From Candidatus Ozemibacter sibiricus (GTDB lineage: Bacteria > Muiribacteriota > Ozemobacteria > Ozemobacterales > Ozemobacteraceae), in assembly GCA_003327425.1 (NCBI GenBank), contig QOQW01000027.1, positions 1 to 64,000 of the forward strand: a stretch of 64,000 nucleotides of DNA. The letters are read 5' to 3'. The notes under the pieces are model-generated. The model searched no databases and was not told the DNA's origin. It worked only from the letters and a program-made list of their open reading frames with translations. Both the position numbers and the translations under genes were made by a program. This document shows positions 4,902-54,163 of the stretch, piece after piece; positions within the stretch are counted from its first letter, which is position 1; each line of letters begins with the position of its first letter.

Positions 4902-4930
4902 TTGACTTTCCCGGGGTCGGGTCCTATCAT
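4902..4930 (+). promoter_or_regulatory. Sigma-70-type promoter of leuS
   Basis: TTGACT (4902-4907), a 17-base spacer, then TATCAT (4925-4930). This is the best -35/-10 pair in the window. Transcription would begin near 4937, leaving a leader of about 29 bases, too short for a T-box or attenuator. Confidence 0.75.
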
Positions 4931-4965
4931 TGGGGGCCGAATCCAACCGCATCCGGGAGGCAGCC

Positions 4966-7431
4966 ATGGCCGACAAGTATGATTTTCGCTCCATCCAGGA
5001 GAAGTGGCATCCGATCTGGGACGAGCGGGGCCTCTACAAGACCCGCGAGGATCCTGGCCGCCCCAAGTTCTATTGCCTCGACTTCTTCCCGTATCCGTCG
5101 GGCAGCGGGCTGTCGGTCGGCCACCTCCGCAACTACATTCCCACCGATGTCATCAGCCGCATGAAGCGGATGCAGGGATTCAACGTGCTGCACCCCATGG
5201 GCTGGGACGCCTTCGGCCTGCCGGCTGAGAACTACGCCATCCAGCAAGGGGTCCACCCCGCCGAGACGACGGCGCGCAACGCCGCCAACTACCGCCGGCA
5301 ACTGACGCTCGTCGAGTGCTCCTACGACTGGGATCGCGAGATCAATTCGACCGATCCCGAATACTACCGCTGGACGCAATGGTTCTTTCTGCTGCTCTAC
5401 CGGCGGGGCCTGGCCTATCAGGCGACCGGGGCCCAGTGGTGGTGCCCGAGCTGCCGCACCATCCTGGCCAATGAACAGGTCGAACAGGGCACCTGCTGGC
5501 GGTGCGACAGCACGGTCGAGAAGAAAGATCTCAAGCAGTGGTATTTCCGCATCACGGCGTATGCCGACCGGTTGCTCGAAGATCTGAAGACGGTCGATTG
5601 GCCCGAGAAGATCAAGAAGATGCAGGAAAACTGGATCGGTCGGCGCACCGGCACCGAGGTCGTCTTCAAAGCGCTCGATCCCAACGGCGCCGGCGAATTC
5701 GACATTCCCATCTTCACCACCCGCATCGATACCATTTTCGGGGTCACCTTCCTGACCCTGGCTCCCGAGCATCCGCTGGTCGAGAAGCTGACCCATCCCT
5801 CGCGCCGCGCCGAGGTGCAGGACTACATCGCCGCGGCCCGCCGCAAGAGCGAGATCGACCGGCTCTCGACCGAGAAAGAGAAGACCGGCGTGCCGCTGGG
5901 CAGCTTCGCCATCAACCCCTTCAACGGGGCCCGGGTGCCGATCTACATCGGCGACTACGTGCTCGTCAGCTACGGCACCGGCGCGGTCATGGCCGTGCCG
6001 GCCCATGATGAGCGCGACTTCGCCTTCGCCCGCAAGTATGGTCTGCCCATCGTCGAGGTCATCACGCCGGCCGGCGTCAAGCAGGGTTCGTTGTCGGCGG
6101 CCTACGCCGAGTACGGCGTGCTGGTCGATTCGGGCGAGTTCTCGGGCTTGACGTCGGGCGAGGCCATCGAACGGATGACCGCGTGGGTCGAGCAGCGCCA
6201 ACTGGGCGCCCGCCGGGTCAATTACAAGTTCCGCGACTGGCTGATCTCTCGGCAGCGCTACTGGGGCGCGCCGATCCCGATCATCCACTGCGCCGACTGC
6301 GGGGCGGTGCCCGTGCCCGAGCACGAGCTGCCGGTTAAACTACCGGTCATCAAGGAATTCAAACCGGCCGAAGATGGGCGTTCCCCCCTCGCTCGGGTCG
6401 AGAGCTGGGTCAATACGACCTGTCCGACTTGCGGCAAGCCGGCTCGCCGGGAAACCGACACCATGGACGGTTTCGCCTGCTCGTCGTGGTATTTCCTGCG
6501 CTTCGTCGACCCCAAGCTCACGACCGCCCCCTTCGATCAGGCCCGGGTCGCCGCCTGGCTACCCGTCGATCTCTATGTCGGCGGCGCCGAGCACGCGGTC
6601 ATGCACCTGCTCTACGCCCGCTTCTGGACGAAGGTGATGCAGGACGAAGGGCTGGTGCCCTTCAGCGAACCGTTCGCCAAGCTGCGCAACCAGGGCATGA
6701 TGCTGGCCGCCGATGGCCAGAAGATGAGCAAATCGAAGGGCAACGTCATCACTCCCGACGAGATGGTCGAGAAATACGGGGCCGACACGCTGCGGGCCTT
6801 CATCCTGTTCCTGGGCGCCTTCGAACTCGAGGTCGCCTGGTCCGATGAAGGCATTCGCGGGATGCACCGCTTCATCAACCGCGTCTGGGATCTCGTCCAG
6901 GAGTTTCCGGGCGACCAGTACACCTCGCTGGGAGCCGAAGCGGTGGAATTGCACCGGCTGATCCACAAGACGGTCAAAGCGGTCACCACCGACATCGACA
7001 ACTTCAGCTTCAACACCGCCCTCGCCCGCCTGATGGAGTTCTCGAACACCCTCGCCGACCTGTCGAAGCACGGACCGCTGACCAAATCGGCCTTGTGGCG
7101 GGAGGCGATCCGCACCTTCCTCAAGCTGCTGGCCCCGATCACTCCCTTCCTGGCCGAAGAGCTGTGGCAGCGCATCGGCGAGAAAGGCTCGGTGCATGAG
7201 CAGCCCTGGCCGACCTGGGACGAACGCGCCTTCGTCGAGACCGAGATCACCCTGCCGGTGCAGGTCAACGGCAAGCTCCGCGATCAGGTCACCGTGCCCG
7301 TCAACCTGACCGATGACGAGATTCGCGCCAAGGTTCTCGAGAGCGAGAAAGTTCGCAAGTGGGTCGAGGGCAAGCAGATCGTGAAGTTCATCCACGTGCC
7401 CAAGCGGATGGTGAGCTTCGTCGTCAAGTAG
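4966..7431 (+). CDS. leuS: Leucyl-tRNA synthetase
   Basis: This class I synthetase charges tRNA-Leu with leucine. The 821-residue protein has the N-terminal Rossmann half with PYPSGSGL and the GWDAFGLPAENYAIQ block. Next come a zinc-type CxxC pair (CPSC and CWRC), a CP1 editing domain (HDERDFAFARKYGLPI), the KMSKSKGN loop near residue 589, and an anticodon-binding C-terminal part. The signature normally read HxGH is SVGH here, so the first His is replaced by Ser. ATG 4966 is preferred to an upstream ATG at 4930 because GGGAGG (4955-4960) stands five bases before it. The gene is monocistronic as far as can be seen. Confidence 0.97.
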   Translation: MADKYDFRSIQEKWHPIWDERGLYKTREDPGRPKFYCLDFFPYPSGSGLSVGHLRNYIPTDVISRMKRMQGFNVLHPMGWDAFGLPAENYAIQQGVHPAETTARNAANYRRQLTLVECSYDWDREINSTDPEYYRWTQWFFLLLYRRGLAYQATGAQWWCPSCRTILANEQVEQGTCWRCDSTVEKKDLKQWYFRITAYADRLLEDLKTVDWPEKIKKMQENWIGRRTGTEVVFKALDPNGAGEFDIPIFTTRIDTIFGVTFLTLAPEHPLVEKLTHPSRRAEVQDYIAAARRKSEIDRLSTEKEKTGVPLGSFAINPFNGARVPIYIGDYVLVSYGTGAVMAVPAHDERDFAFARKYGLPIVEVITPAGVKQGSLSAAYAEYGVLVDSGEFSGLTSGEAIERMTAWVEQRQLGARRVNYKFRDWLISRQRYWGAPIPIIHCADCGAVPVPEHELPVKLPVIKEFKPAEDGRSPLARVESWVNTTCPTCGKPARRETDTMDGFACSSWYFLRFVDPKLTTAPFDQARVAAWLPVDLYVGGAEHAVMHLLYARFWTKVMQDEGLVPFSEPFAKLRNQGMMLAADGQKMSKSKGNVITPDEMVEKYGADTLRAFILFLGAFELEVAWSDEGIRGMHRFINRVWDLVQEFPGDQYTSLGAEAVELHRLIHKTVKAVTTDIDNFSFNTALARLMEFSNTLADLSKHGPLTKSALWREAIRTFLKLLAPITPFLAEELWQRIGEKGSVHEQPWPTWDERAFVETEITLPVQVNGKLRDQVTVPVNLTDDEIRAKVLESEKVRKWVEGKQIVKFIHVPKRMVSFVVK

Positions 7432-7554
7432 TCCCACCCATCGACCTTCGGAAGGGGCCGGGAGCCTGCCATGCGACCCGGCGGGAGATTTTCCCCCACC
7501 GCAGGGCAGGGTTGTCGCGTCCCATTTTCCCTGATTCCATGGTGGTCGGTTTCG

Positions 7555-7563
7555 TGATACTGT
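7555..7563 (+). promoter_or_regulatory. Extended -10 candidate for the membrane-protein operon
   Basis: TGA followed by TACTGT, about 40 bases before the TTG start at 7606. There is no clear -35. It is consistent with the extended -10 pattern seen at other genes in the window. Confidence 0.35.
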
Positions 7564-7605
7564 GAAGAAACCCTGAAACCTCACAGAAACTGTTCTGGAG
7601 GCAGC

Positions 7606-8412
7606 TTGAAACACCTGATCAAGGAAGCCGGCATCAAGGTCGCCCTCCTGGCGGTGGGGTTGCTGGCCTTGCTGGGAGTGACCGGCGAAATCGTCTGTTC
7701 GGTGGGCCAGACCGGCGGCGTGCACGTCCTTCACGTCGAGGTGGCGACGCCGCGGTTGGCGCCGCTGGTGGTGAACATGCTGGCCTGGGATCTGCTGCTC
7801 GTTCTGTTCGCCCTGGCCGGCCTGACCTCGGACCGGGTGACACGAGCTGGTGCCCGTGGGCGCGCGCTGTTCGGATTGTTCCTGAGCCTGGCCTTATGGC
7901 GGGTGGTAGCGCGACGCATCTGGGCCTTGGCCACCGATGCGCCGGGTCTAGGAGTGGGAACCACGACGGATGCCCTGACCTGGTGGGTAGTAGCCGTGCT
8001 GATCGCGGTGGTGAAAGAACCGATCGCCCAGACCTTCCAGGAAGAAGACGGCCGACAGGACTGCCCCCTGCTGGCGGTGTTCACCTGGCACCATCGCAAG
8101 GACTGGGTGTTCCCGATGCAGGGGGCGGTGGGGCTGACCCTGACCGCGCTCGGCCTGCCCGAGGCGGTGGCCGAAGACCTGCTGAATCTGACCAAGATCG
8201 GGCTGTTGGGAGGCGCCGCCTGGGCCATCGTGGCTCGCTGCGGGGCTCGCCTGGCCCCGCTGTCAGCGGAGCCAGGCCATTCCGATGATCCGGCGGCGAG
8301 GGCGGCGGCAGAGGCCGGGGCTATTCCTTCGACACCAGGGTTTGCCGGGTCCCCGACCGCCGACCAGATCGGAACGGCCAGCGCCTTCCAGAGAGGGTCG
8401 GCATGTCCTTGA
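7606..8412 (+). CDS. Polytopic membrane protein of unknown function
   Basis: This 268-residue protein has about five or six hydrophobic helices (roughly residues 8-29, 55-76, 85-108, 120-138, 165-185, 195-215) and a hydrophilic Ala/Pro-rich tail. The start is TTG at 7606, supported by GGAGG at 7597-7601 four bases upstream and by the immediate membrane segment. Its last ten bases overlap the next gene, so the two are translationally coupled. It begins a same-strand run that ends with the P-type-ATPase-like gene. I do not recognise the family. Confidence 0.7.
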   Translation: MKHLIKEAGIKVALLAVGLLALLGVTGEIVCSVGQTGGVHVLHVEVATPRLAPLVVNMLAWDLLLVLFALAGLTSDRVTRAGARGRALFGLFLSLALWRVVARRIWALATDAPGLGVGTTTDALTWWVVAVLIAVVKEPIAQTFQEEDGRQDCPLLAVFTWHHRKDWVFPMQGAVGLTLTALGLPEAVAEDLLNLTKIGLLGGAAWAIVARCGARLAPLSAEPGHSDDPAARAAAEAGAIPSTPGFAGSPTADQIGTASAFQRGSACP

Positions 8413-9251
8413 ACGAGATCCTGGGACATCGCTTCTTCGGCCTGTGGTGCCTGCTGCTGGCCTTCGCCCTGCTCGCGGCGCGACCGCGCCCCACCGGGAA
8501 TGGAGGCCCGCAACCTCAGGCCGAAGAAGCAGGAACCCTTGTTCCCGCCTGGGCGATCTGGGCGTTGACCGCGGCCGCGGCCTGGGCCTGGGTGGTGGTG
8601 CTGGCCCGCAGCCTGCCTCCCTGGCGGGTGACGATGACCTGGGGCGCGGAAGGACTGGTGCTGTTCGACTCCCGGGCCCCGCTCTGGGCGGCGGTGGGCG
8701 TGTGGGGGCTGCTCCGGCGCCAGGGGGCGGCGCTCGCCGATCTAGCCCCGTACATGCTGGCGGGGGCCTGGATCGCCGACCCGGGGGCGTTCACCCTGCC
8801 CTGGGTGGCCGGGGGCTACCAGACCTTCGCCCCCGGGGAAGGGCTGCCCAACCTTCTGGTGCTCGCCTTGCCTTTGCTGGTCTGGTTTCGAGGCGCCAAA
8901 CCATCCTCGGCCCGCCTGTCGCCTGGCGACGCCGTTGCGGGGCCCGGCGACATCGAGCTGATCAGCGTGCTGATCGCCGCCTGTTTCTGGGGCCTGCTGC
9001 CGGCCCTGGCGATGGTGATGCTGGCGGCTGGCCCCGGTTGGTCAGGCGAGCCTTCCCCCTCGACGATCGATATCTTTTCCCCGCCGGCCGGGTTGCGACA
9101 GGCCGGGGCGCTGGCCCTGTTCGTCGCCGCTCTGCTCGAGTGGCTGGAGACCTCGACCATCGCCGTGGGCGGGCCGGCAGGCGGGCTCGCGGCGGCGGCC
9201 CTGTTCGCCGTCGGCCGGATTCTGCCGATAGTGGGAAAGATGGTATCCTGA
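8403..9251 (+). CDS. Polytopic membrane protein of unknown function, coupled to the preceding gene
   Basis: This 282-residue protein has six or seven hydrophobic segments (for example residues 10-27, 48-68, 90-105, 115-130, 148-163, 188-210, 240-275) and little else. The start lies inside the end of the upstream gene, a ten-base overlap typical of subunits made in step. It contains a conspicuous PWRVTMTWGAEG stretch that should help in a family search. No catalytic motif was found. It could be a partner subunit of the 7606-8412 product. Confidence 0.7.
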   Translation: MSLNEILGHRFFGLWCLLLAFALLAARPRPTGNGGPQPQAEEAGTLVPAWAIWALTAAAAWAWVVVLARSLPPWRVTMTWGAEGLVLFDSRAPLWAAVGVWGLLRRQGAALADLAPYMLAGAWIADPGAFTLPWVAGGYQTFAPGEGLPNLLVLALPLLVWFRGAKPSSARLSPGDAVAGPGDIELISVLIAACFWGLLPALAMVMLAAGPGWSGEPSPSTIDIFSPPAGLRQAGALALFVAALLEWLETSTIAVGGPAGGLAAAALFAVGRILPIVGKMVS

Positions 9252-9335: not shown

Positions 9336-9911
9336 ATGAGCAGTGTCGCAGTGTATTTCGAGCTGCGCGCCCTGGGGTATTTCTTCCTGATGCTGGCCGA
9401 TCTGGTCTGGCAGTCGGGCGTGTTCCACGCTTTCCTGTGGCTGGGTGCGGCGCTGCTGGTCGGCGTCGTCTTCGTGTTCGCCTTGCTGATTCTGATGCCG
9501 CGCATCGTCGAAGACTACGTCAAGATCTACAACTGGTACATCAACTCCGATTTCTACGTGATCTTCGAAGAGAAGGTCGACGTCCGGCTGGTGTTCAAGG
9601 TGGCCGGCCTGCCGATCATACTCGTGCTGGCCTTGTTCTTCGCCGTCGTCAACATGGTGGTGCGCGCCGCCTACCATCTCGCCGCCAAGCTGAACCTGCT
9701 GCGCTGCGTCAACTGCCACGCCACCATCGAATGGGACGAAGGCACCGTGCTGTGCCACATCTGCGGGAGCGAAGTGACCGGCACCGCCACCAAGACCTGC
9801 CCGGGCTGCCATTTCAAGGCGAATACCGTGCGCTGCCCCTTCTGCGGCTACGTGGTCTTCGTCGAGCTGCTGGGGCAGCACCCGTCCGGCAAAGCCGGCA
9901 AGAAGGCGTGA
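9336..9911 (+). CDS. Membrane protein with C-terminal double zinc ribbon
   Basis: This 191-residue protein has two hydrophobic hairpins (about residues 28-54 and 88-112), then a cytoplasm-sized tail with four CxxC knuckles: CVNC and CHIC form one ribbon, CPGC and CPFC a second. Ribbons of this kind usually bind protein or nucleic acid and hold one Zn each. GGAGG at 9321-9325 supports the ATG. It lies 18 bases before the next membrane protein and probably shares its mRNA. Family not recognised. Confidence 0.75.
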   Translation: MSSVAVYFELRALGYFFLMLADLVWQSGVFHAFLWLGAALLVGVVFVFALLILMPRIVEDYVKIYNWYINSDFYVIFEEKVDVRLVFKVAGLPIILVLALFFAVVNMVVRAAYHLAAKLNLLRCVNCHATIEWDEGTVLCHICGSEVTGTATKTCPGCHFKANTVRCPFCGYVVFVELLGQHPSGKAGKKA

Positions 9912-9929: not shown

Positions 9930-11687
9930 ATGCTGATCCGCTCGAAGAACCGGGTCTACTACTTCGACCGCCACATCTCGGATGCGGTGCTGCGCCTGCT
10001 GGTCTTCGCCTTCACGCTGCTGGCCGGGGTGACCACCTGGCTGACCCTGGCGCGGCCCGATGCGGTCATCGACGCGGTCTTCTGGCCGCGCCTGCAGGAT
10101 GAGATCGCCTTCCTGACCGGGCGCGAGGTCACCAAGCTGGGCACCTCCGAAAAGACCCTGTTCACCCAGGCCCACGAAGAGATGGAAAAGGACGGAGCGG
10201 GCATCACCTCGTTCCCCGAGTATGCCGACCGCATCAGTCCCAACAACCAATCGGTCGAGATGGTGCGGCTGCGGCTGCGCGACCTGCGCATCGCCCTGCG
10301 CATCGTCGGCCTGCTGGTGCTCGACGTCTTCATTCTGGGATTGCTGGTGCTGCGCGTCATCTACGGCAGCGCGCCCCGCCGCTGGAAGGTGCTGCAGTGG
10401 CTGTACGGCCTGTTCAACAAAGACGGAGCCGGGCGCCAGCCCTATGGCTACGTGCATTCGTTCTCGCCGCTGCAGCGCAAGGTCTTCGAGATGGCCTTCG
10501 CCGCCTCGAAAGGCAACCCTGACGGCCGCTTCGATCTCGATCTCGACAAACTGGTCAAGCTCCTCTTCCCCGGCGACGACGTGGTCACCGAGAAGCGCCG
10601 CGCCCTGACCGCCATCGCCTTCACGGAGCTGTGCGAGGAGTATTTCTACTTCCAGATCCCGACCGGGAAGACGACCGCGATCAAGACCTACTGCCCGATC
10701 CTGCCGTTCGAGGACAAAGTGCGCCGCGAGACGGTGCGCGATCTGGCCGGTCGCGAGATCGAGGTGTTCACGGCTGGCACCTTCCGCTTTTCGCCGCCGC
10801 TGTACCAGGAGTATCTGAAATATCGCTACGTCAAACTGCCGCATCCGGTCATCTATTCGATCGACGATCGCAAGCACCCCTTCGCCTTCCGGCTCTACCT
10901 GACCCTGTGGGAAGCCTTGTACGATCTGCGCCAGCAGTCCGACAAGGAGATCGCCACCCACACCGTCACCCTCTCGCTCTTCACCCTGCTCGATCGCGCC
11001 TGCCTCGAGATGACCTACGACAAGGACGCCTCGCTGCTCGAAGCCTTCCACAGCGATCTGGCGGCGCTGAAAGAAGCCGGGTTCATCCGCGGGTGGTCGG
11101 TGGAAGAGCATGGCGACAAGGTCCATCCGCAATGGTACAAAGGCGTCGAACTGTATTCATACGATGCCGCCACCAACACCTATTTCCTCAATTCGAACCT
11201 GCTCAAGCACAAGGCCTACATCTTCGAGATGACGCCATACGCCGAACTCGACAAGATCAAGATCGTGCGCCGGCGCTGCGCCTACATCGATTCCCTGAAC
11301 ACGCCCTGCACCCGCCCGGCCCTGCCGGGCAGCCCCTACTGCAAGCGCCATGCGCGCGCCATGGATTACGAAAGTCCGCGGCTGTTCTACGAGAAGGTCA
11401 AGGCTCTGACCGGGCCGACGAGCGGGGAAGGCACCCCGCCCCCGCCGGCCGCCGGGGCCCCCGAATCGCCAGGCGCGCCGCCCACGACACCCCCCGAACG
11501 ACCGACCGCCGGGCCCGACGGTGCCGATCGCCACGGCCCCGATCGAGACAGCTCCGGCGGCGCCCGGCCCACGACGGCCGATGAATCGCCCGCTGAGATC
11601 GTCGCCGGTCCCACGCCCGCTCCGGGGGGGGCTGACGAACCAGCTTCGCCGGCCGGGCCAGCGACTGGCCCCACTGCACGGCCGTGA
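9930..11687 (+). CDS. Two-helix membrane protein with large soluble domain and Cys/His zinc motif
   Basis: This 585-residue protein has membrane helices near residues 18-41 and 120-146 that flank a small extracytoplasmic loop of about 80 residues. A soluble region of some 300 residues follows (about 165-455). Its segment KHPFAFRLYLTLWEALYDLR and the helices after it suggest a winged-helix-like fold, which is speculative. Next is a zinc motif of the form CX10CX9CX3H (CAYIDSLNTPC, then YCKRH). The final 100 or so residues are Pro/Gly/Ala-rich and probably disordered. It sits between the zinc-ribbon protein and the ATPase-like protein on the same strand, so a common complex is plausible but unproven. 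Confidence 0.7.
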   Translation: MLIRSKNRVYYFDRHISDAVLRLLVFAFTLLAGVTTWLTLARPDAVIDAVFWPRLQDEIAFLTGREVTKLGTSEKTLFTQAHEEMEKDGAGITSFPEYADRISPNNQSVEMVRLRLRDLRIALRIVGLLVLDVFILGLLVLRVIYGSAPRRWKVLQWLYGLFNKDGAGRQPYGYVHSFSPLQRKVFEMAFAASKGNPDGRFDLDLDKLVKLLFPGDDVVTEKRRALTAIAFTELCEEYFYFQIPTGKTTAIKTYCPILPFEDKVRRETVRDLAGREIEVFTAGTFRFSPPLYQEYLKYRYVKLPHPVIYSIDDRKHPFAFRLYLTLWEALYDLRQQSDKEIATHTVTLSLFTLLDRACLEMTYDKDASLLEAFHSDLAALKEAGFIRGWSVEEHGDKVHPQWYKGVELYSYDAATNTYFLNSNLLKHKAYIFEMTPYAELDKIKIVRRRCAYIDSLNTPCTRPALPGSPYCKRHARAMDYESPRLFYEKVKALTGPTSGEGTPPPPAAGAPESPGAPPTTPPERPTAGPDGADRHGPDRDSSGGARPTTADESPAEIVAGPTPAPGGADEPASPAGPATGPTARP

Positions 11688-11852
11688 GGATCGGCCGCCA
11701 TCCGGATCGCTGCTCCAGCCGCCACCCGGCGCTTGGCGGGCGGGCGGCGGGCGGCGGCGCATCCACCCGGGCGGGCGGCCGCAGCGTCTCGCGGGCCGGA
11801 CCGCTGACGGCCACCGCGGGCCGAGGTCCCCGGTCATCGTGCGGAGGCGACC

Positions 11853-14800
11853 ATGCCTGACGCCCGCCACCGGATCGGCCTGTCCTGGTTCGAGGTCGAG
11901 CAACGCCGCAAGTGCCGACCTCCTACCCCGATCATGACGGGCCGCGCCCGGCTGTGGTGGCGGCTGTTCCTGGAGAAGTTCGACGACCCGCTGGTCCGCC
12001 TGCTGGCCGCGACCGCCGGGTTGTCGTTCCTCGTCGGCCTGCCACAGGGGGAGACCACCGAGGGGCTCGCCGTGCTGGCCATGATCCTGACCATCGCCCT
12101 GCTGGGCCTGGCCGGCGAATGGATGGCCTTGCGCCAGTTTACCAGCAGTCTCGAAGACCCTGAACAGAACTGGTTCACCACCATCCGCGATGGCGAACCC
12201 GTGCCCGTCGCCCTGGGCGATCTGGTGCCCGACGACTGCATCCTGCTCGAACCGGGCGATCGCATTCCCGCGGATGGCGTTCTGCTCGACCAGGTCGACT
12301 TCGAGGTGGCCCCTCCCCTTCCGGTCGAAGAGGAGGGTCGAGACGGCGGCCGCCCGTCAATCAGGCCCACCGATTCACGGCAGCCGCGGGCCGGCATGGT
12401 GGTGACGGCCGGCCGGGCACTCTGGCGGCTGTCGGCCTGGCCTGACGTCCCCTCTCCCGAACGGGTGCTGGAGAGCGCCTGGCGGCTCGACCGCACCTCT
12501 CCGCTCTGGCAGCAGACGGAGGCCTTCGTCGGCTGGTTCCCCCCCATCGGCGTCAGCGCCGGGCTTGGCTTGTTCCTGGTGCTGGGGCTCACCGAAGTCG
12601 GCGGCGTGAGCGCCGCCCTGCCCCGCGGGGCCTTCTGGCTGCTGGGGTCGCTGGGCGCCGGGTTGGCGATGGCTCTGGCGTCCTGGTGGGTCCCTCGTCT
12701 GTATCGATCCCTGGCCGGCATGGGCTTCGAGGTCAGCGCCGCCAGCCCTCCCTGGCCCCCGCCCCATCCCGACATCCCCGCCGACGACCGACGGCTCGGG
12801 CTGATGACGACGGGCTTCTTGCTGCTCGTCGGCATCGCGGCGGGCCTGCTGCCCGCCGACCCGCGCACCTGGATGACGATGGCCGGCCTGCATGCCTTGC
12901 TGAGCATGGCGATGCTGGTGCTGGCCATTCTGGTGGCGGTCGTTCCCGACGGGTTGGGCATGCATGTGGTCCTTGGCCTGGTCTGGACGGTGCGCCAGAT
13001 GGTCCGAGCCGGCCTGCGGGTGAGGCGCCTGCAGGTCGCCGAGACCCTGGGCGGCATCGACACGCTCTGCCACGACCTCGACGGGACTCTGACCCGGCTG
13101 CAGCCACGGGTCGCCCAGGTTCTTCTGGGTTCCCGACCGGTCGCCGCCCTCGACTCTCCGGCGGGCGATCGCCTGGGCCGGGCGATCGCCGCCACCTGCT
13201 CCGAGAGCCGGATCTGCCTGGCCCCCGGCCAGCCCCCCATCATTCTCGGCGACCCGCTGGCGGGGGCTTTGCTGCTCTGGCTGCACGATCACTGGCCGAA
13301 CCACCGCCAGGAAGGAACATGGACCATCGAACGGATCGCCGGAGAGGGCGGGTGGACCAGCGCCCTGTTTCGCCCCGCCGCCGACTCGGCCGTCGATGGT
13401 GCAGCGGCGCCTGAAGGGGCAACGGCCGCCGCCGCCGACCAGGGCTCGCCATCAGCGAGCCAGGCGAGCCAGGCGAGCCCCACCGCTACCAACGCCCGAT
13501 CCTGGCCGGAGCATGTCCCCTGGCTGTTCGTGCGAGGCCCCGCCACCGCGGTCGCGCGGATCTGCACCGGCCTCGACCACGAAACCAGCGGCCACGACAT
13601 CGACGGCGACCCTGCCACCGACGGCAACCGCCGCTCGGCCGACCTGGCCGCGCTCATGCGGAGGTTTGAAGAAGCTGATGCGCGCGGGGAAACCTGGCTG
13701 GGCCTGGCCGGCCGACCGTGGCCCGAGGCGCCATTCCGCCCCACCCTGTCGGGACGCGCCTGGCGTGACCTGCGCTGGTTGGGAGCGGCATCTCTGGAAG
13801 CCCCCCCCGCCGAAGGGTATCCCGCCATTTGTCAGACCCTTACCCAAGCAGGGATCGACGTGACCATCCTGACCGAGCGGCCCCTGCCGGTCGTTCGCCG
13901 GGTCATCGCCACGCATGGGCCGACCTTGCGAGCCTGCGCGCCTCGCATCATGACCGGCCAGGGCGAAGGCATCGCGACCTTCCCGATGGTGAGCGCCCCG
14001 CCGGGCCAGACCACGACCACGCGATCTGATGTCTCGCACGACTCGAACGAAGATCTCGCCCAGAACCTGCCCAGCAGCGAGACGTCAGCCGAGGCGCCGC
14101 CTGCCCCCGCCTCCGGCCATGATCTTCCGGGCGCCGCCGGAACGTCCGCCGGCAGCCTGACCCGGGCCCTGCTGGTGCGCCAGCTCCGCGAGCGCGGGAA
14201 GCGGGTCGCCGTGCTCGGCTGGCGGCCCGCGGATGTGCCCGCCCTGGCCGAATCGCACGTCGGCATCGCGCTGGGGCCGGCGGCTCCCCAGCGGGTGCGA
14301 GAGGCCAGCGACGCCATCATTCCCGACGGTTCGCTCCAGTCGCTGGTGCGGGCCATCGCCCTCGGCCGCACCTTCTTTCGGAATATCCGCCGCTATCTGG
14401 TGTTCCAGACGGTGGTCAACGGCTTCATTCTAGGAGCCAGCCTGCTTGGCCCCCTGTTCGGCCTGGGCATTCCCTTCACCGCGCTGCAGATGCTCTGGGG
14501 GCATTTCCTGCTCGACTCGGTGGCGGCCTTGGCCTTGGCGACCGAATCGCCCGACCCTGATGTGCTCGAAGGCCCCCCGACCGATGTCACGGCCCCGCTG
14601 TTCACCTGGGCGATGGCCAGACAGGCCTTGATCATGGGAGGATGGGCGGTGGCCGGCCTGTTGGCCCTGATGGCCGGGCTGGCCCGGGCCAACCTGCCAG
14701 GCGGGCAGGTCGCCTCGCTCCACTTTTCCGCCTTCGTGTTCTTCATCCTGTGGCTGATGTGGATGGCCCGCTGGTCAGGAAGCCGCACCCCTCACGCCAA

Positions 14801-15026
14801 TCGGGCCTGGGACAACCCCTGGGCCCTCGGCCTGCTGGCCGGCACCATGGTCGCCCAGATGGCGTTCGTCCAGCTCGGCGGGCGCCTGTTCCACACTGCC
14901 CCGCTCTCTGAAAGGAGCTGGCTTTTGTTGCTCGCCGGCACCGGCCTGTTCGCCTGGGCCGGCGCCGCACTGACCGACCGGCTGACCGGCCGCCCCTCAC
15001 TCGTCGTCGGCGAACGAATTCCGTGA
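11853..15026 (+). CDS. P-type (P2-like) ATPase homologue with rewritten catalytic motifs
   Basis: This 1057-residue protein has the full order of a Ca2+-pump-like P-type ATPase: actuator domain (IRDGEPVPVALGDLVPDD), M4 (VVPDGL, residues 365-368), P domain, N domain with VRGPATAV in place of the KGAxE region, hinge, and M5-M10 (ALQMLWGHFLLDS, then ALATESPDPDVLEGPP). The catalytic residues are changed. DKTGTLT is DLDGTLT (D408, L409, D410); TGES is lost (PLPVEEE at about 155-161); TGD is TER (674-676); GDGxNDxPAL is GWRPADVPAL. The P loop therefore resembles a HAD phosphatase DxD motif. In M6 only the Asp (D888) of the usual N-x-x-T-D ion ligands remains. The frame is open throughout with GGAGG before the ATG, so it is a maintained gene. 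It is probably not a normal pump; it may be a sensor, a scaffold or a phosphatase-like protein. Confidence 0.85.
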   Translation: MPDARHRIGLSWFEVEQRRKCRPPTPIMTGRARLWWRLFLEKFDDPLVRLLAATAGLSFLVGLPQGETTEGLAVLAMILTIALLGLAGEWMALRQFTSSLEDPEQNWFTTIRDGEPVPVALGDLVPDDCILLEPGDRIPADGVLLDQVDFEVAPPLPVEEEGRDGGRPSIRPTDSRQPRAGMVVTAGRALWRLSAWPDVPSPERVLESAWRLDRTSPLWQQTEAFVGWFPPIGVSAGLGLFLVLGLTEVGGVSAALPRGAFWLLGSLGAGLAMALASWWVPRLYRSLAGMGFEVSAASPPWPPPHPDIPADDRRLGLMTTGFLLLVGIAAGLLPADPRTWMTMAGLHALLSMAMLVLAILVAVVPDGLGMHVVLGLVWTVRQMVRAGLRVRRLQVAETLGGIDTLCHDLDGTLTRLQPRVAQVLLGSRPVAALDSPAGDRLGRAIAATCSESRICLAPGQPPIILGDPLAGALLLWLHDHWPNHRQEGTWTIERIAGEGGWTSALFRPAADSAVDGAAAPEGATAAAADQGSPSASQASQASPTATNARSWPEHVPWLFVRGPATAVARICTGLDHETSGHDIDGDPATDGNRRSADLAALMRRFEEADARGETWLGLAGRPWPEAPFRPTLSGRAWRDLRWLGAASLEAPPAEGYPAICQTLTQAGIDVTILTERPLPVVRRVIATHGPTLRACAPRIMTGQGEGIATFPMVSAPPGQTTTTRSDVSHDSNEDLAQNLPSSETSAEAPPAPASGHDLPGAAGTSAGSLTRALLVRQLRERGKRVAVLGWRPADVPALAESHVGIALGPAAPQRVREASDAIIPDGSLQSLVRAIALGRTFFRNIRRYLVFQTVVNGFILGASLLGPLFGLGIPFTALQMLWGHFLLDSVAALALATESPDPDVLEGPPTDVTAPLFTWAMARQALIMGGWAVAGLLALMAGLARANLPGGQVASLHFSAFVFFILWLMWMARWSGSRTPHANRAWDNPWALGLLAGTMVAQMAFVQLGGRLFHTAPLSERSWLLLLAGTGLFAWAGAALTDRLTGRPSLVVGERIP

Positions 15027-17035: not shown

Positions 17036-17749
17036 TCACGCAGCGCGGCGACCCTTGCGGCGAGCCCCGCCGGCGGGAGCGGTCGGGGCCCCGGCCGCCG
17101 GCGAGCCGGCCTGCTTGAGAGCCTCGAGTTCGGTTTTCAGGCGCTCGAGTTCGCGCTTGAGCGCTTCCGTATCGCCCGCGGCCGGGGTACCGGCAGGGGA
17201 AGAGGGGGCGGGACCGCCGCCCATGGGCGCGCTTCCGGGAAAGGGAGGAGGGGGAGCCGCCGGTCCCGGGGCCGGGGGCGGGGTCGCGGGCCCGGTCGAA
17301 GCCGGGCCATAGCCCGGGCCGCCCATCTGGAACAGCCCAGCGAAGGGGTTGCCGAAGGACGGCAACGGCATGGCGAAGCCGGGGTTCATCCAGCCGAGGC
17401 CGGCCATCATCCGGCGCTGGTTCTCGAGATAGGCATGGAAGGATTGCGGCAGCCAGTGCCAGAGGAAGTCGCGCACGACGTTGTCCTGCGCCCGGATCAT
17501 CAGCAGCACCAGATCGAGGGGCAGATAGTCGGGACGCGTCTTCAAGGTCTCGTACAGCACCTGCCCCATGATGACGTGGGTGATATCCTCGCCGGTCTGA
17601 TGGTCGACGATCCGGATGCGCTCGCCCTGCTTGACCCGATCGGCCAGGTCGTTGAGCGTGACATGGCAGTTGCGGGTGGGGTCGTAGATCCGACGATTGG
17701 GATATTTGCGCAGAACCGTTTCGTTGCCGGAATCGTGGGGCTGGGCCAT
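17036..17749 (-). CDS. phaR: PhaR-type polyhydroxyalkanoate synthesis regulator
   Basis: Residues 10-110 of this 237-residue protein match the PHB accumulation regulator DNA-binding domain: VLRKYPNRRIYD, then VTLNDLADRV, IRIVDHQTGEDITHVIMGQV. A Pro/Gly/Ala-rich linker follows, then a C-terminal coiled-coil segment (about 205-228, ALKRELERLKTELEALKQ). Family members bind PHA granules or oligomers and repress phasin and pha genes. No PHA synthase or phasin is in this window, so the target is unknown. ATG 17749 is chosen because CGGAGGA lies just upstream and homology begins there; a longer upstream reading is not supported. Confidence 0.85.
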   Translation of the reverse strand: MAQPHDSGNETVLRKYPNRRIYDPTRNCHVTLNDLADRVKQGERIRIVDHQTGEDITHVIMGQVLYETLKTRPDYLPLDLVLLMIRAQDNVVRDFLWHWLPQSFHAYLENQRRMMAGLGWMNPGFAMPLPSFGNPFAGLFQMGGPGYGPASTGPATPPPAPGPAAPPPPFPGSAPMGGGPAPSSPAGTPAAGDTEALKRELERLKTELEALKQAGSPAAGAPTAPAGGARRKGRRAA

Positions 17750-17964
17750 GGGTTCCTCCGATCGCACGGGGAATGCCGGCCGCACCGGCCGGTACCCCGG
17801 ATCATACCACGGTTGGTGCGCCGCGGTCATCTTCCTTCCGATCGTCCTTCCCATCAGAATCCGATGGTTGTGCGATGCGGCACGCCTGGACTGTTCCTCA
17901 GGGACGAGCGACCAACCAGGCACCTCGGCGCGATCGACCTGGGGATGCATTCGCCGGGCGGGAT

Positions 17965-17973
17965 TGCTATAAT
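17965..17973 (+). promoter_or_regulatory. Extended -10 promoter, six bases before the start codon
   Basis: TGC followed by a perfect TATAAT. The ATG at 17980 begins where transcription is expected to start, and no Shine-Dalgarno sequence lies before it, so the mRNA is probably leaderless. No -35 box is evident. Confidence 0.6.
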
Positions 17974-17979
17974 GCTGCC

Positions 17980-20358
17980 ATGCGTACGATGAAATGGTGG
18001 TCAGGCGTGGCAGTGGTGGCAGGTCTGCTGACGGCTGGCTGGCTGGGCACTCGGCCGGCGGCCGCGCAGACCACGCGGATCGAGAAGGCCGCATCGCGGG
18101 CCATCGAGGCCTTCGATCATCCCGGCATGTATCCGCCCAACGATCTGTACAAATGGGCCCGCGAGGCCTTCCAGGCCGGGCAGCTCGACGACGCCCGCCT
18201 CTATGCGCTGCGCATCTATTTCGACGGGGTGCGTACCACCAACCTGCTCGATCTGCTGGGGGCGATCGAGGCCAAGGCCGGCTATCCCCTGCTGGCCGGG
18301 GAATGGCTGCGCAAATCGCTCTGCCTCAATCCTCAGGGCGCCTTCGCCCGCAAGCTGCTGGCCCAGCTCCCGCCCAAGCCGCGGCCGATTCCCGTCGCTC
18401 CCGATCAGGTACAGGACCATTTCAACCAGATCTCGAGCCGCCTGCCCCAATTGCTGGCCCGCCTCAACACGCCGAAGCTCCATTTCGACAGCGTCCTCAA
18501 CGACCTGGCCCGCGGCCAGTTCTACAAGGCGCTCGCCCTGGCCGAGGAATACGAGAAACGGTACCCCGGCGTCGATGGCACGGCGTTGACCGCGCTATGC
18601 GCCGTCTACCTCGGCCGCGGCAAGGACGCGCAGACGTTGCTCGAGGCCGGTCTGAAGAAGAATCCTCGCCATGCCCTCCTCCTCTTCGCCAAGGCGATGT
18701 TCGCCGATCCTCACCCCGAAACCAGCGCCACTTCACGACCGCAGGCCCTCTACGACCTCGACCGCTGGGCCGAGGCTCGCACCGCGGCCGCCCAGCATCT
18801 GCAGCTGTTCCCGCGCTCGATCGAGGGCTACCTGGTGCTGGCCCGCCTCGCCCTCGACCTGAACCAGCCCGAGGAAGCCAAGACCCATCTCGAAGCGGCC
18901 GCCCGGATCGATCCCGGCCATCCCGTCCTCAACCGGCTGCTGGCTGACGCCTACCTGAGCACCGGCCAGTTCGCCAAAGCCAGCGAGGTGCTGCAGAAAG
19001 CCTTCCCCCAGGGCTACAATCTGCCATCGATCAGCCTCAAAGCCGGTCTGATCGCCATCGCCCACGGGCATCTGGCCGAAGCCTCGACGATCATGGACGA
19101 CGCGCGCAACAGTCTGCCGTTCACCGACGCCGATGCCTGGCCGATGTTCGTCCAGCTCGCGCTCTACCTCGATGACCCCGAAGACGCGCGACGAGGTCTC
19201 GACCTCTGGAGCAAGCGGTTCCCCCGCAACAGCCTGGCCTGCTACCTCGAAGGGTTCTACTGGTTCAAGGTCGGTCAACCCCGCAAAGCGCTCGATTTCA
19301 TCCGGCAGGGCTTCGCCAAGAACCCCGATCGGTTATCTACCCTCAAACTGCTCGCCATGCTCTCCGCCCTCGATCAAGATCCCCCCCTGGCCGAAGCCAT
19401 CCGGGCCCGCCTCGAGGGGAAACCCGCCCCGGCGGTCCTGCCGAGTCGGCCCGAGCCCCACCCCCCGACCCGACGTCCGCCTTCGGCGCCCGCCACGGCC
19501 GCTCCCCAGTCCGCCGCCGCCCCAGCGGTTCCGGCCGCCCCTCCTCCACCCCCGCCGGGGACCGTCATCCCCGCTGGCAAGTTCACCATCAACGCGGCCC
19601 AGGGCATGGATCTTTCCTACGTCGACGCCCTCAAGCAGAGTCTCGATTCGACCCTGGCCCGCCTCGAACCGCTGCTGGGCGAACTCAAGGAACCCCTCGA
19701 GGTCCATCTGATCACGGCGGCCGGACTGGGCAGCCGTGTCGTCATGTATGACCCCGCCCAGGAGACGCTGACCGTCACCGCTCTCTTCTTCGATCCATCC
19801 ACGATCAAGGCCCTGCTCGAGGGCGAGAAGCCCAACTTCACCGAAGACGAAGCCACCCAGGTTTCGCAATGGCTGCCCTTCCATTCGCTGGCGCGCGAAC
19901 TCAGCCTGGCCCTGATGCGCCGTACCATCCCGGGGGCCCGCGAGACCGCCGCCGCCACCGCCTGGATGCAGCGGGGCCTCGGCGAGCTGCTGGGCGGCAG
20001 CGACGACGTGCTGCGCGATCTGCTGGTGTCGGCGCAGAACCGCATCGCCAGCGACGAAGCCAAACTGGTCACCGCCGACGAGCTGAACCGCATCCTGACC
20101 GACCCCTCGCCCGCCCCCGGCAAGCTCGAAGCGGCGCGGGCCCAGGCCTACCTGATGGTGGCCTTCCTGGTCAAGAAAGCCGGCGACAAAGACACCGGCC
20201 TGCAGAAGTTCGTCAAGCTCATGCAGGCGGTCTGCGCCGGCAAAGATCTCGACGGCGCCCTCAAAGAGCAATTCGGTCTCACCAAGGGCCAGTTCGAGTC
20301 CGCCTGGAAGGAAGCCGCCTACTGGAGCCTGCGGCAGGGCCTGCCCTACGAATGGTGA
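17980..20358 (+). CDS. Exported TPR protein with a degenerate gluzincin-peptidase-like domain
   Basis: This 792-residue protein has a Sec signal peptide ending near RPAAAQ (residue 30). Tandem TPR-like helices follow, about residues 40-510, then a Pro/Ala-rich linker (about 530-560) and a C-terminal domain shaped like the peptidase-MA family. In active members the core reads LAHELTH and is followed by a W-x-x-EG-x-AE helix. Here the core is LARELSLAL and the helix is AWMQRGLGELLGG, so both zinc-binding His residues and the first Glu of the helix are gone. It should therefore be non-proteolytic, perhaps a periplasmic binding scaffold. The start choice rests on the signal peptide and the adjacent TATAAT. 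The next gene overlaps its stop. Confidence 0.75.
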   Translation: MRTMKWWSGVAVVAGLLTAGWLGTRPAAAQTTRIEKAASRAIEAFDHPGMYPPNDLYKWAREAFQAGQLDDARLYALRIYFDGVRTTNLLDLLGAIEAKAGYPLLAGEWLRKSLCLNPQGAFARKLLAQLPPKPRPIPVAPDQVQDHFNQISSRLPQLLARLNTPKLHFDSVLNDLARGQFYKALALAEEYEKRYPGVDGTALTALCAVYLGRGKDAQTLLEAGLKKNPRHALLLFAKAMFADPHPETSATSRPQALYDLDRWAEARTAAAQHLQLFPRSIEGYLVLARLALDLNQPEEAKTHLEAAARIDPGHPVLNRLLADAYLSTGQFAKASEVLQKAFPQGYNLPSISLKAGLIAIAHGHLAEASTIMDDARNSLPFTDADAWPMFVQLALYLDDPEDARRGLDLWSKRFPRNSLACYLEGFYWFKVGQPRKALDFIRQGFAKNPDRLSTLKLLAMLSALDQDPPLAEAIRARLEGKPAPAVLPSRPEPHPPTRRPPSAPATAAPQSAAAPAVPAAPPPPPPGTVIPAGKFTINAAQGMDLSYVDALKQSLDSTLARLEPLLGELKEPLEVHLITAAGLGSRVVMYDPAQETLTVTALFFDPSTIKALLEGEKPNFTEDEATQVSQWLPFHSLARELSLALMRRTIPGARETAAATAWMQRGLGELLGGSDDVLRDLLVSAQNRIASDEAKLVTADELNRILTDPSPAPGKLEAARAQAYLMVAFLVKKAGDKDTGLQKFVKLMQAVCAGKDLDGALKEQFGLTKGQFESAWKEAAYWSLRQGLPYEW

Positions 20359-52930: not shown

Positions 52931-53872
52931 TCAGCGCTGGAGGAGCGAATACATGTAGACCAGGAACGACCCCAGCAGCAACACTCCTTCGGCCCGCACG
53001 ATCCGCATGCCGGTGTGCATGATGGGCAGGCATCCCAGGCTGACCACGACCATCACCGGGATGTCGATGCCCAGCATCTGGTCGGACACCGAGAGCGGTA
53101 GAAGGGAACCGGCGATCCCGAGGATGCCCAGGATATTGAAGATGTTGCTGCCGACCACGTTGCCGACGGCGATTTCGGGCTGCCCCTTCCAGGCCGCCAC
53201 GACCGAGGTGGCCAGTTCGGGCAGGGAGGTTCCGGCGGCGATCAAGGTCAGACCGATGATTTCATCGGACAGGCCGAAAGCCTTGGCGAGATTGACCGCC
53301 CCGTACAGCAGTAGCTTCGACCCGGCAACCAAGCCAATCAGCCCGGCCACCAGCCAGCCGAGGTCCTGGGCGAGGGTGGTCGGTTCGGTCTTCTGGGCCT
53401 CTTCGGGGATGTCAGGGACGGCTTCCTGCTTCCCGAGGTGGTAGCTGACCGCGATGTAGACCACCAGGATGCCGAGCAGCACGAGCGCTTCGAGCCGGGA
53501 GAGGGTCTGATCGACCGCCATCCACCAGCACAAGCCCGAGGTCAGGATCATGACCGGCACGTCTCGTCGCACCACCGCCCGGTTGCACGCGATAGGACGG
53601 ATCAGGGCCGCCAGGCCCAGGATCATGGCGGCATTGAAGATGTTCGAACCGACCACGTTGCCGACCGCAATGCCGGGCTTGCCTTCAAAACTGGCCTGCA
53701 CACTGACGACCACCTCGGGCATCGAGGTGCCGAAAGCCACGACCGTCAATCCGATGAACAGGGCCGACACCCCCATGCGGTAGGCCAGGCCGACCGCCCC
53801 CGCCACCAGCCAGTCGGCAGCGTAGGTCAGCAATGACAATCCCGCAACGACCGCAACGATGTCAAGTATCAT
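52931..53872 (-). CDS. Calcium/sodium antiporter, YrbG/CaxA family
   Basis: This 313-residue integral membrane protein has the two inverted alpha-repeats of the Ca2+:cation antiporter superfamily. VAFGTSMPEVVVS with GNVVGSNIFN (about residues 47-85) mirrors IAAGTSLPELATS with GNVVGSNIFN (about 210-250). The acidic residue in each GTSxPE and the GSNIF asparagine form the cation path. About ten hydrophobic helices surround a short acidic cytoplasmic loop (EAVPDIPEEAQKTE). It would exchange Na+ (or K+/H+) for Ca2+. ATG 53872 is chosen because the family N-terminus begins there; no Shine-Dalgarno site precedes it (see 53879-53884). Confidence 0.93.
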   Translation of the reverse strand: MILDIVAVVAGLSLLTYAADWLVAGAVGLAYRMGVSALFIGLTVVAFGTSMPEVVVSVQASFEGKPGIAVGNVVGSNIFNAAMILGLAALIRPIACNRAVVRRDVPVMILTSGLCWWMAVDQTLSRLEALVLLGILVVYIAVSYHLGKQEAVPDIPEEAQKTEPTTLAQDLGWLVAGLIGLVAGSKLLLYGAVNLAKAFGLSDEIIGLTLIAAGTSLPELATSVVAAWKGQPEIAVGNVVGSNIFNILGILGIAGSLLPLSVSDQMLGIDIPVMVVVSLGCLPIMHTGMRIVRAEGVLLLGSFLVYMYSLLQR

Positions 53873-53878
53873 GCCGCG

Positions 53879-53884
53879 ATGGTA
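53879..53884 (-). promoter_or_regulatory. -10-like element six bases before the antiporter start
   Basis: Minus-strand TACCAT, then six bases and ATG 53872, with no ribosome site. The spacing matches the other putative leaderless starts, but there is no TGn extension here. Confidence 0.35.
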
Positions 53885-54163
53885 TCCCACCACCGCCCGA
53901 CATGCAAGTGGTCACGCTGGGCGACCGGCTCCACCCCTCACCAGGAGCTGGATTTGGGGCGCCGTGGCGCCGGATCGCCGGGCTCTCCGGGGTTGGCCCA
54001 CCCGCCAGCCGACCGCCCTTCTGCCCCAGACGGTCGATGAAGGCGCCGAGGGAACGGCTGGAGCGGAGAAAAACGCCGCGCCGGCTACCATTGCGCGGCA
54101 AGCCGGCCGCGCGAGCCGCCTGCCCCCCCCATCACCCGGCGGCACTCTCCCCCTCCAACCGCG

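Follow-up and report, generated by a model that had tools for sequence, protein, structure and literature searches.

The window, that is, the whole 64,000-nucleotide stretch analysed here (contig QOQW01000027.1 of Candidatus Ozemibacter sibiricus), comes from a third species of a genus that also contains genomes G001 and G002, within the family Candidatus Ozemobacteraceae (Riflebacteria). It carries a gene for a protein resembling a P-type Ca2+-ATPase, hereafter the pseudo-pump, whose locus and altered motifs are as follows:

4930 to 7431, plus strand: leuS
7606 to 9251, plus strand: two membrane proteins (268 and 282 aa) on the same strand, conserved in the genus
9336 to 9911, plus strand: zr191, a two-TM protein with C-terminal zinc ribbons, beside p585 in all seven genomes having zr191
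9930 to 11687, plus strand: p585, a family-restricted 585-aa protein with two TM helices, a C-terminal Cys/His cluster and a predicted twin winged helix like that of replication initiators; in related loci it immediately precedes the pump
11841 to 11847, plus strand: ribosome-binding site GCGGAGG before the ATG
11853 to 15026, plus strand: pseudo-P2B (PMCA-like) P-type ATPase, 1057 aa, assigned by ORF, profile, PDB and fold matches
12309 to 12398, plus strand: actuator stretch where TGES is expected (residues 153-182), motif deleted
12945 to 12956, plus strand: M4 PDGL for PEGL (residues 365-368); all five dead copies have PDGL, all intact pumps PEGL
13074 to 13094, plus strand: motif I DLDGTLT for DKTGTLT (residues 408-414)
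13533 to 13541, plus strand: RGP for the nucleotide-domain KGA (residues 561-563)
13872 to 13880, plus strand: TER for TGD (residues 674-676)
13953 to 14162, plus strand: linker (residues 701-770), of low model confidence and dN/dS about 1
14217 to 14246, plus strand: GWRPADVPAL for GDGxNDxPAL (residues 789-798), the first Asp replaced by Trp
14418 to 14516, plus strand: M5 Asn856 to M6 His884/Asp888, an altered cation site (N...NxxxD in intact pumps)

The original prediction, that this protein is a full-length homologue of P2 Ca2+ pumps, is borne out by profile, PDB sequence and fold matches alike. Pfam recognizes Cation_ATPase_C (E 1.5e-26) and E1-E2_ATPase (1.4e-10); the best NCBIfam model is the PMCA-type TIGR01517, with 213.8 bits against a cut-off of 507 bits that is not reached; the best PDB sequence matches are ACA8 and PMCA1/2, and the predicted fold is nearest to PMCA (Foldseek against the PDB, E 4.9e-33). 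The AlphaFold (AF2) model, of moderate confidence (12-sequence alignment, mean pLDDT 68, pTM 0.65), retains the actuator sheet, the Rossmann fold of the P domain and an N domain, as well as M1-M2, a broken M4 and the C-terminal helices, with pLDDT below 50 in three long stretches, including the loop that formerly held TGES and the linker (here 704-768). Together with Foldseek and Pfam, it places the domains in the P-type order (M1-2, A, M3-4, P-N-P, M5-10).

The open frame, which lacks any internal stop, had itself been taken as a sign of selection. By itself this is weak evidence, because the same GC-rich DNA also holds an overlapping 469-aa antisense ORF (11834-13243), rejected as an artefact of base composition since its frames are closed in relatives. 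The frames of the relatives, together with the substitution rates given below, do support selection: frame 0 is stop-free in the copies of all four species compared, the other five frames carrying 2-60 stops each, and both the start codon and the ribosome-binding site are conserved in the three species of the genus.

The dead-pump locus was found in five genomes: the window, the two congeneric species (G001 and G002) and one copy each in two further genera (G003 and G004). P2B-like matches at E <= 1e-25 occur only in this family among 40 genomes of the phylum. The genomes are without exception MAGs or draft assemblies, and three of the five dead copies are closely related. zr191, p585 and the pump form an unbroken run in the window, G002 and G003. 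The assemblies of G001 and G004 break between the last two genes: p585 stops no more than about 100 bases short of a contig end, the pump starts on a different contig, at base 1 or close to it, and the two are likely adjacent across the break. The copies of the other genera (L042:2834-6013, minus strand, with DHGIPLT and GESLED; L040:1-2319, plus strand, with GDSGRML and GVHDAD) have suffered differing losses. p585 is present in 7 of the 40 genomes, all in this family (loci including L036 and L084-L088). In G007 and G014, zr191-p585 lacks an adjoining P-type ATPase, so neither gene depends on the pump.

Another P2B gene has a separate history at leuS. Downstream of leuS, G001 has an intact pump (TGET, DKTGTLT) and feoAB-like genes (L038:2915-8807), all missing from the window between leuS and the 268-aa gene (7431-7606). 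The leuS-linked pump of G002 is reduced to a remnant that lacks the actuator domain: a single open frame (L036:3-2339) runs through M1-M2 and M3-M4 as far as DKTGTLT and on into a FeoB-type G domain, an in-frame fusion that may reflect decay or an assembly effect. In both G001 (L038:6182-8793) and G002, FeoA/FeoB G domain and FeoB membrane domain lie in separate, overlapping ORFs. Elsewhere in the window, the minus strand encodes a Sodium/calcium exchanger family protein (52931-53893; PF01699, E 6.8e-67), by which Ca2+ export may be covered, and, in this Riflebacteria genome, a PHB/PHA accumulation regulator DNA-binding domain protein (17036-18094; PF07879).

Every motif change originally listed (DLDGTLT, the lost TGES, TER, GWRPADVPAL) is present in the window protein, and three more were found (PEGL to PDGL, KGA to RGP, and M6 NxxxD to H884xxxD888). 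The five dead copies were compared with seven intact P2B pumps from the same family. In the order window, G002, G001, G003 and G004, motif I reads DLDGTLT, DIDGTMT, DLEGVMT, DHGIPLT and GDSGRML; TGD has become TER, TDQ, SAH, SSE and SSD; GDGxND has become GWRPAD, GWRPED, GWRPED, GESLED and GVHDAD; and KGA has become RGP, RGP, RGP, RGD and KAK. TGES is deleted throughout the genus, is TGKT in G003, and lies outside the coverage of the truncated G004. Thus DKTGT, the TGES glutamate (that site being uncovered in G004), TGD, the Mg2+ aspartate of GDGxND and the nucleotide contacts are gone. What remains is D408 in four copies of five and, in all five, the motif II Ser/Thr, D794, M5 Asn856 and M6 Asp888; the M6 Asn to His change is found within the genus.

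Does this loss fall on the motor in particular? The intact pumps share 296 invariant columns, and within these the catalytic and nucleotide positions, picked from textbook P-type residues ahead of counting, were compared with the remainder. The two slower copies show a marked excess of loss at the catalytic positions: G003 keeps 10/27 catalytic against 186/267 other positions (P = 0.001), and G004 5/24 against 166/218 (P = 1e-7). The window copy keeps 10/27 and 134/267, a difference that is not significant in the fast-evolving copies of the genus.

Selection was measured with a one-ratio codon model (GY+F3X4, maximum likelihood, three congeners), which gives an omega of 0.105 for the pseudo-pump, 0.063 for zr191, 0.056 for a TPR gene, 0.050 for p585 and 0.031 for the PMCA. 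Fixing omega at 1 lowers lnL from -7975.0 to -8362.6, worse by 388 log units (kappa held at its fitted value), and the original suggestion that selection maintains this protein is thereby upheld. Such figures weigh heavily against reading the gene as a pseudogene in decay or an isolated degenerate copy, the outcome that had been named as fatal to that prediction and one that we consider very unlikely. This reading draws on the fast evolution of the gene (NG86 dN/dS of 0.316 between window and G002, three times that of its neighbours, which together with the intact pumps stand at 0.10-0.12), on the linker with its dN/dS about 1, and on the leuS-linked intact pump, itself gone in the window and a remnant in G002. 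Against it, all complete copies have open frames behind a conserved ribosome-binding site and start, synteny is kept across genera, and the rejection of omega = 1 refutes neutral decay across the genus; neither an omega near 1 nor broken frames, the marks of a pseudogene, were seen. Gap lengths at the nucleotide level reflect an aligner that splits gaps in fast linkers.

Constraint is unevenly distributed along the pseudo-pump, omega being lowest in M5-M6 (0.033), P2b (0.043) and M4 (0.052), while N (0.124) and the A tail (0.139) have the highest values. Compared with the intact PMCA paralogue, constraint is relaxed 2-fold in the A core and 3-fold in N and M7-M10, as against 13-fold in the P domain, 17-fold in M4 and about 30-fold in M5-M6, these last three ratios being rough as the PMCA omega is near zero there (near the floor in M5-M6). 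Regional NG86 figures had suggested a relaxation confined to the motor, a pattern rejected once the maximum-likelihood comparison with PMCA showed the membrane site helices to be relaxed too. Relaxation is thus strongest where a working pump is held tightest, which fits a protein that has stopped pumping, still folds and has a role.

The altered motif I had also raised the possibility of a P domain turned into a working HAD phosphatase or signalling enzyme, in which D408 would be the nucleophile and D410 the general acid. HAD phosphatases require the second motif-I Asp and the motif-IV acids. The pair D408/D410 is present in the window (DLDGT), with DIDGT in G002, and motif II (T/T/S/S/S) and motif III (R/R/R/K/R) agree with the HAD pattern in all five copies, a match that is not diagnostic because all P-type ATPases have a motif II Ser/Thr and a motif III Lys/Arg. 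The position of the second Asp reads D, D, E, G and S: it is retained in two of three congeners, is Glu in the third (G001), and lies within DHGIP and GDSGR elsewhere. The first motif-IV acid is W/W/W/E/V (the second being Asp in all five), and the weakening of P-domain constraint is the opposite of what a conserved active site would show. The phosphatase reading, to which we give hardly any credence, fails because the DxD is not conserved and all three congeners carry Trp in place of the motif-IV acid. Of the two variants expected to mark a clade, the loss of TGES is indeed conserved in the genus; the DLDGTLT form is not, and no conserved variant of DLDGT was found. Judging from the aligned copies, DLDGT is best read as two drift steps from DKTGT that would match the HAD pattern by chance in two species.

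Whether the five dead copies descend from one event was approached by trees and by gene order. The whole-protein tree groups them together with support of 84/88, under a long-branch warning. The membrane-only tree speaks neither for nor against this grouping, or the leuS-linked intact pump as their parent, and orthology is therefore argued from synteny. Their monophyly rests on that synteny, the common PDGL, and the 84/88 tree with its long-branch warning.

The explanation that we favour, and hold to be probable, is that in an ancestor of several Ozemobacteraceae genera a P2B (PMCA-like) copy lost ATP-driven catalysis and was retained as a pseudo-P-type ATPase, a non-pumping membrane protein. 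The sequences show that the pump fold and ten-helix plan persist, that the motor residues, among them the lysine and threonine of the phosphorylation motif, have been lost, and that selection maintains the protein. We infer from the missing motifs that it cannot run the E1-P/E2-P cycle. The original suggestions that the protein has left transport, here ATP-driven transport, and that it is a pseudo-pump are supported. The motif-I Asp in four copies of five and D794 in all five count against a dead site, because a fully dead site needs neither.

Those residues also bear on an unorthodox working transporter, similar to the human protein ERMA/TMEM94, that would move a cation by means of D408, D794 and the altered site (PDGL, N856, H884, D888). 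The set of missing motifs is the same as reported for ERMA (PMC13322241), the M5 Asn and M6 Asp are universal among the copies, and M5-M6 is the most constrained region. Conversely, G004 has no motif-I Asp (GDSGR), nucleotide-contact residues are lost, and constraint on M4 and M5-M6 has slackened to the extent given above. We regard such a transporter as unlikely. It stays alive through the Mg2+ uptake reported for ERMA/TMEM94, which lacks the same motifs and in which the Asp is essential (PMC13322241), a result that speaks against the non-pumping reading, despite the state of G004.

If the pseudo-pump is indeed non-pumping, it could act through binding, as a membrane scaffold or an ion-occupancy sensor whose conformation is read by p585 and zr191, though this is speculative. 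p585 has no sequence relative in Pfam, NCBIfam or the PDB; for the soluble part of its model (pLDDT 63.6, pTM 0.35), Foldseek finds Rep-type initiators, among them RctB domains 2-3 (E 3.9e-4, probability 0.98). A lead offered by this prediction is that p585 may be a membrane-anchored twin winged-helix protein with a fold like that of the RctB/RepE replication initiators. A more specific version, which we think doubtful, would make the pseudo-pump the ion-sensing half of a signalling pair, occupancy of the altered site in M4-M6 moving the retained A/P/N shell that p585 reads; if true, it would link ion status to DNA.

Pseudoenzymes are common among kinases and phosphatases. In the literature searched, no bacterial lineage of P-type ATPases was found described as motor-less yet under selection, which is not proof of absence. 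P2B (PMCA/ACA-type) Ca2+-ATPases resemble the pseudo-pump in domain order, ten-helix plan and sequence; they differ in that it has lost all catalytic motifs, carries PDGL for PEGL and (in the genus) His for the M6 Asn, and scores below the PMCA NCBIfam cut-off. The likeness to HAD phosphatases (DxDGT/DxDGTL) is limited to the letters of motif I (two copies out of five), a motif II Ser/Thr and a motif III Arg/Lys, whereas the pseudo-pump keeps a membrane pump architecture, its second Asp is unconserved and its motif-IV acid lost. LysP-CadC offers a possible logic, no homology being claimed, in which a transporter-like protein stands beside a membrane-anchored protein with a DNA-binding fold; here the pairing is predicted from gene neighbourhood, and the p585 fold resembles RctB/RepE initiators. 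A transceptor role for P-type ATPases has been discussed in the case of P1B pumps (PMC10654040).

The nearest precedent, by analogy, is human ERMA/TMEM94, an ER P-type-like protein with DKQGI for DKTGT, GSSANL for GDGVND and no TGES, whose nucleotide pocket is occluded and reported not usable, and for which D427-dependent Mg2+ uptake is nevertheless reported (PMC13322241). Both have a P-type fold, a noncanonical motif I, a replaced GDGVND and no TGES. ERMA/TMEM94 differs in being eukaryotic, with a PILP cation site in TM4 and the DK of motif I kept, whereas the pseudo-pump is a bacterial protein derived from P2B pumps and has a synteny of its own, the two being compared at superfamily level only. 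Can a P-type fold without TGES, DKTGT and GDGxND transport? This is the open debate on ERMA/TMEM94, to which the pseudo-pump adds a companion case: five dead bacterial P2B copies, whose genomes also carry intact paralogues and whose neighbours are known, make the question testable on simple proteins.
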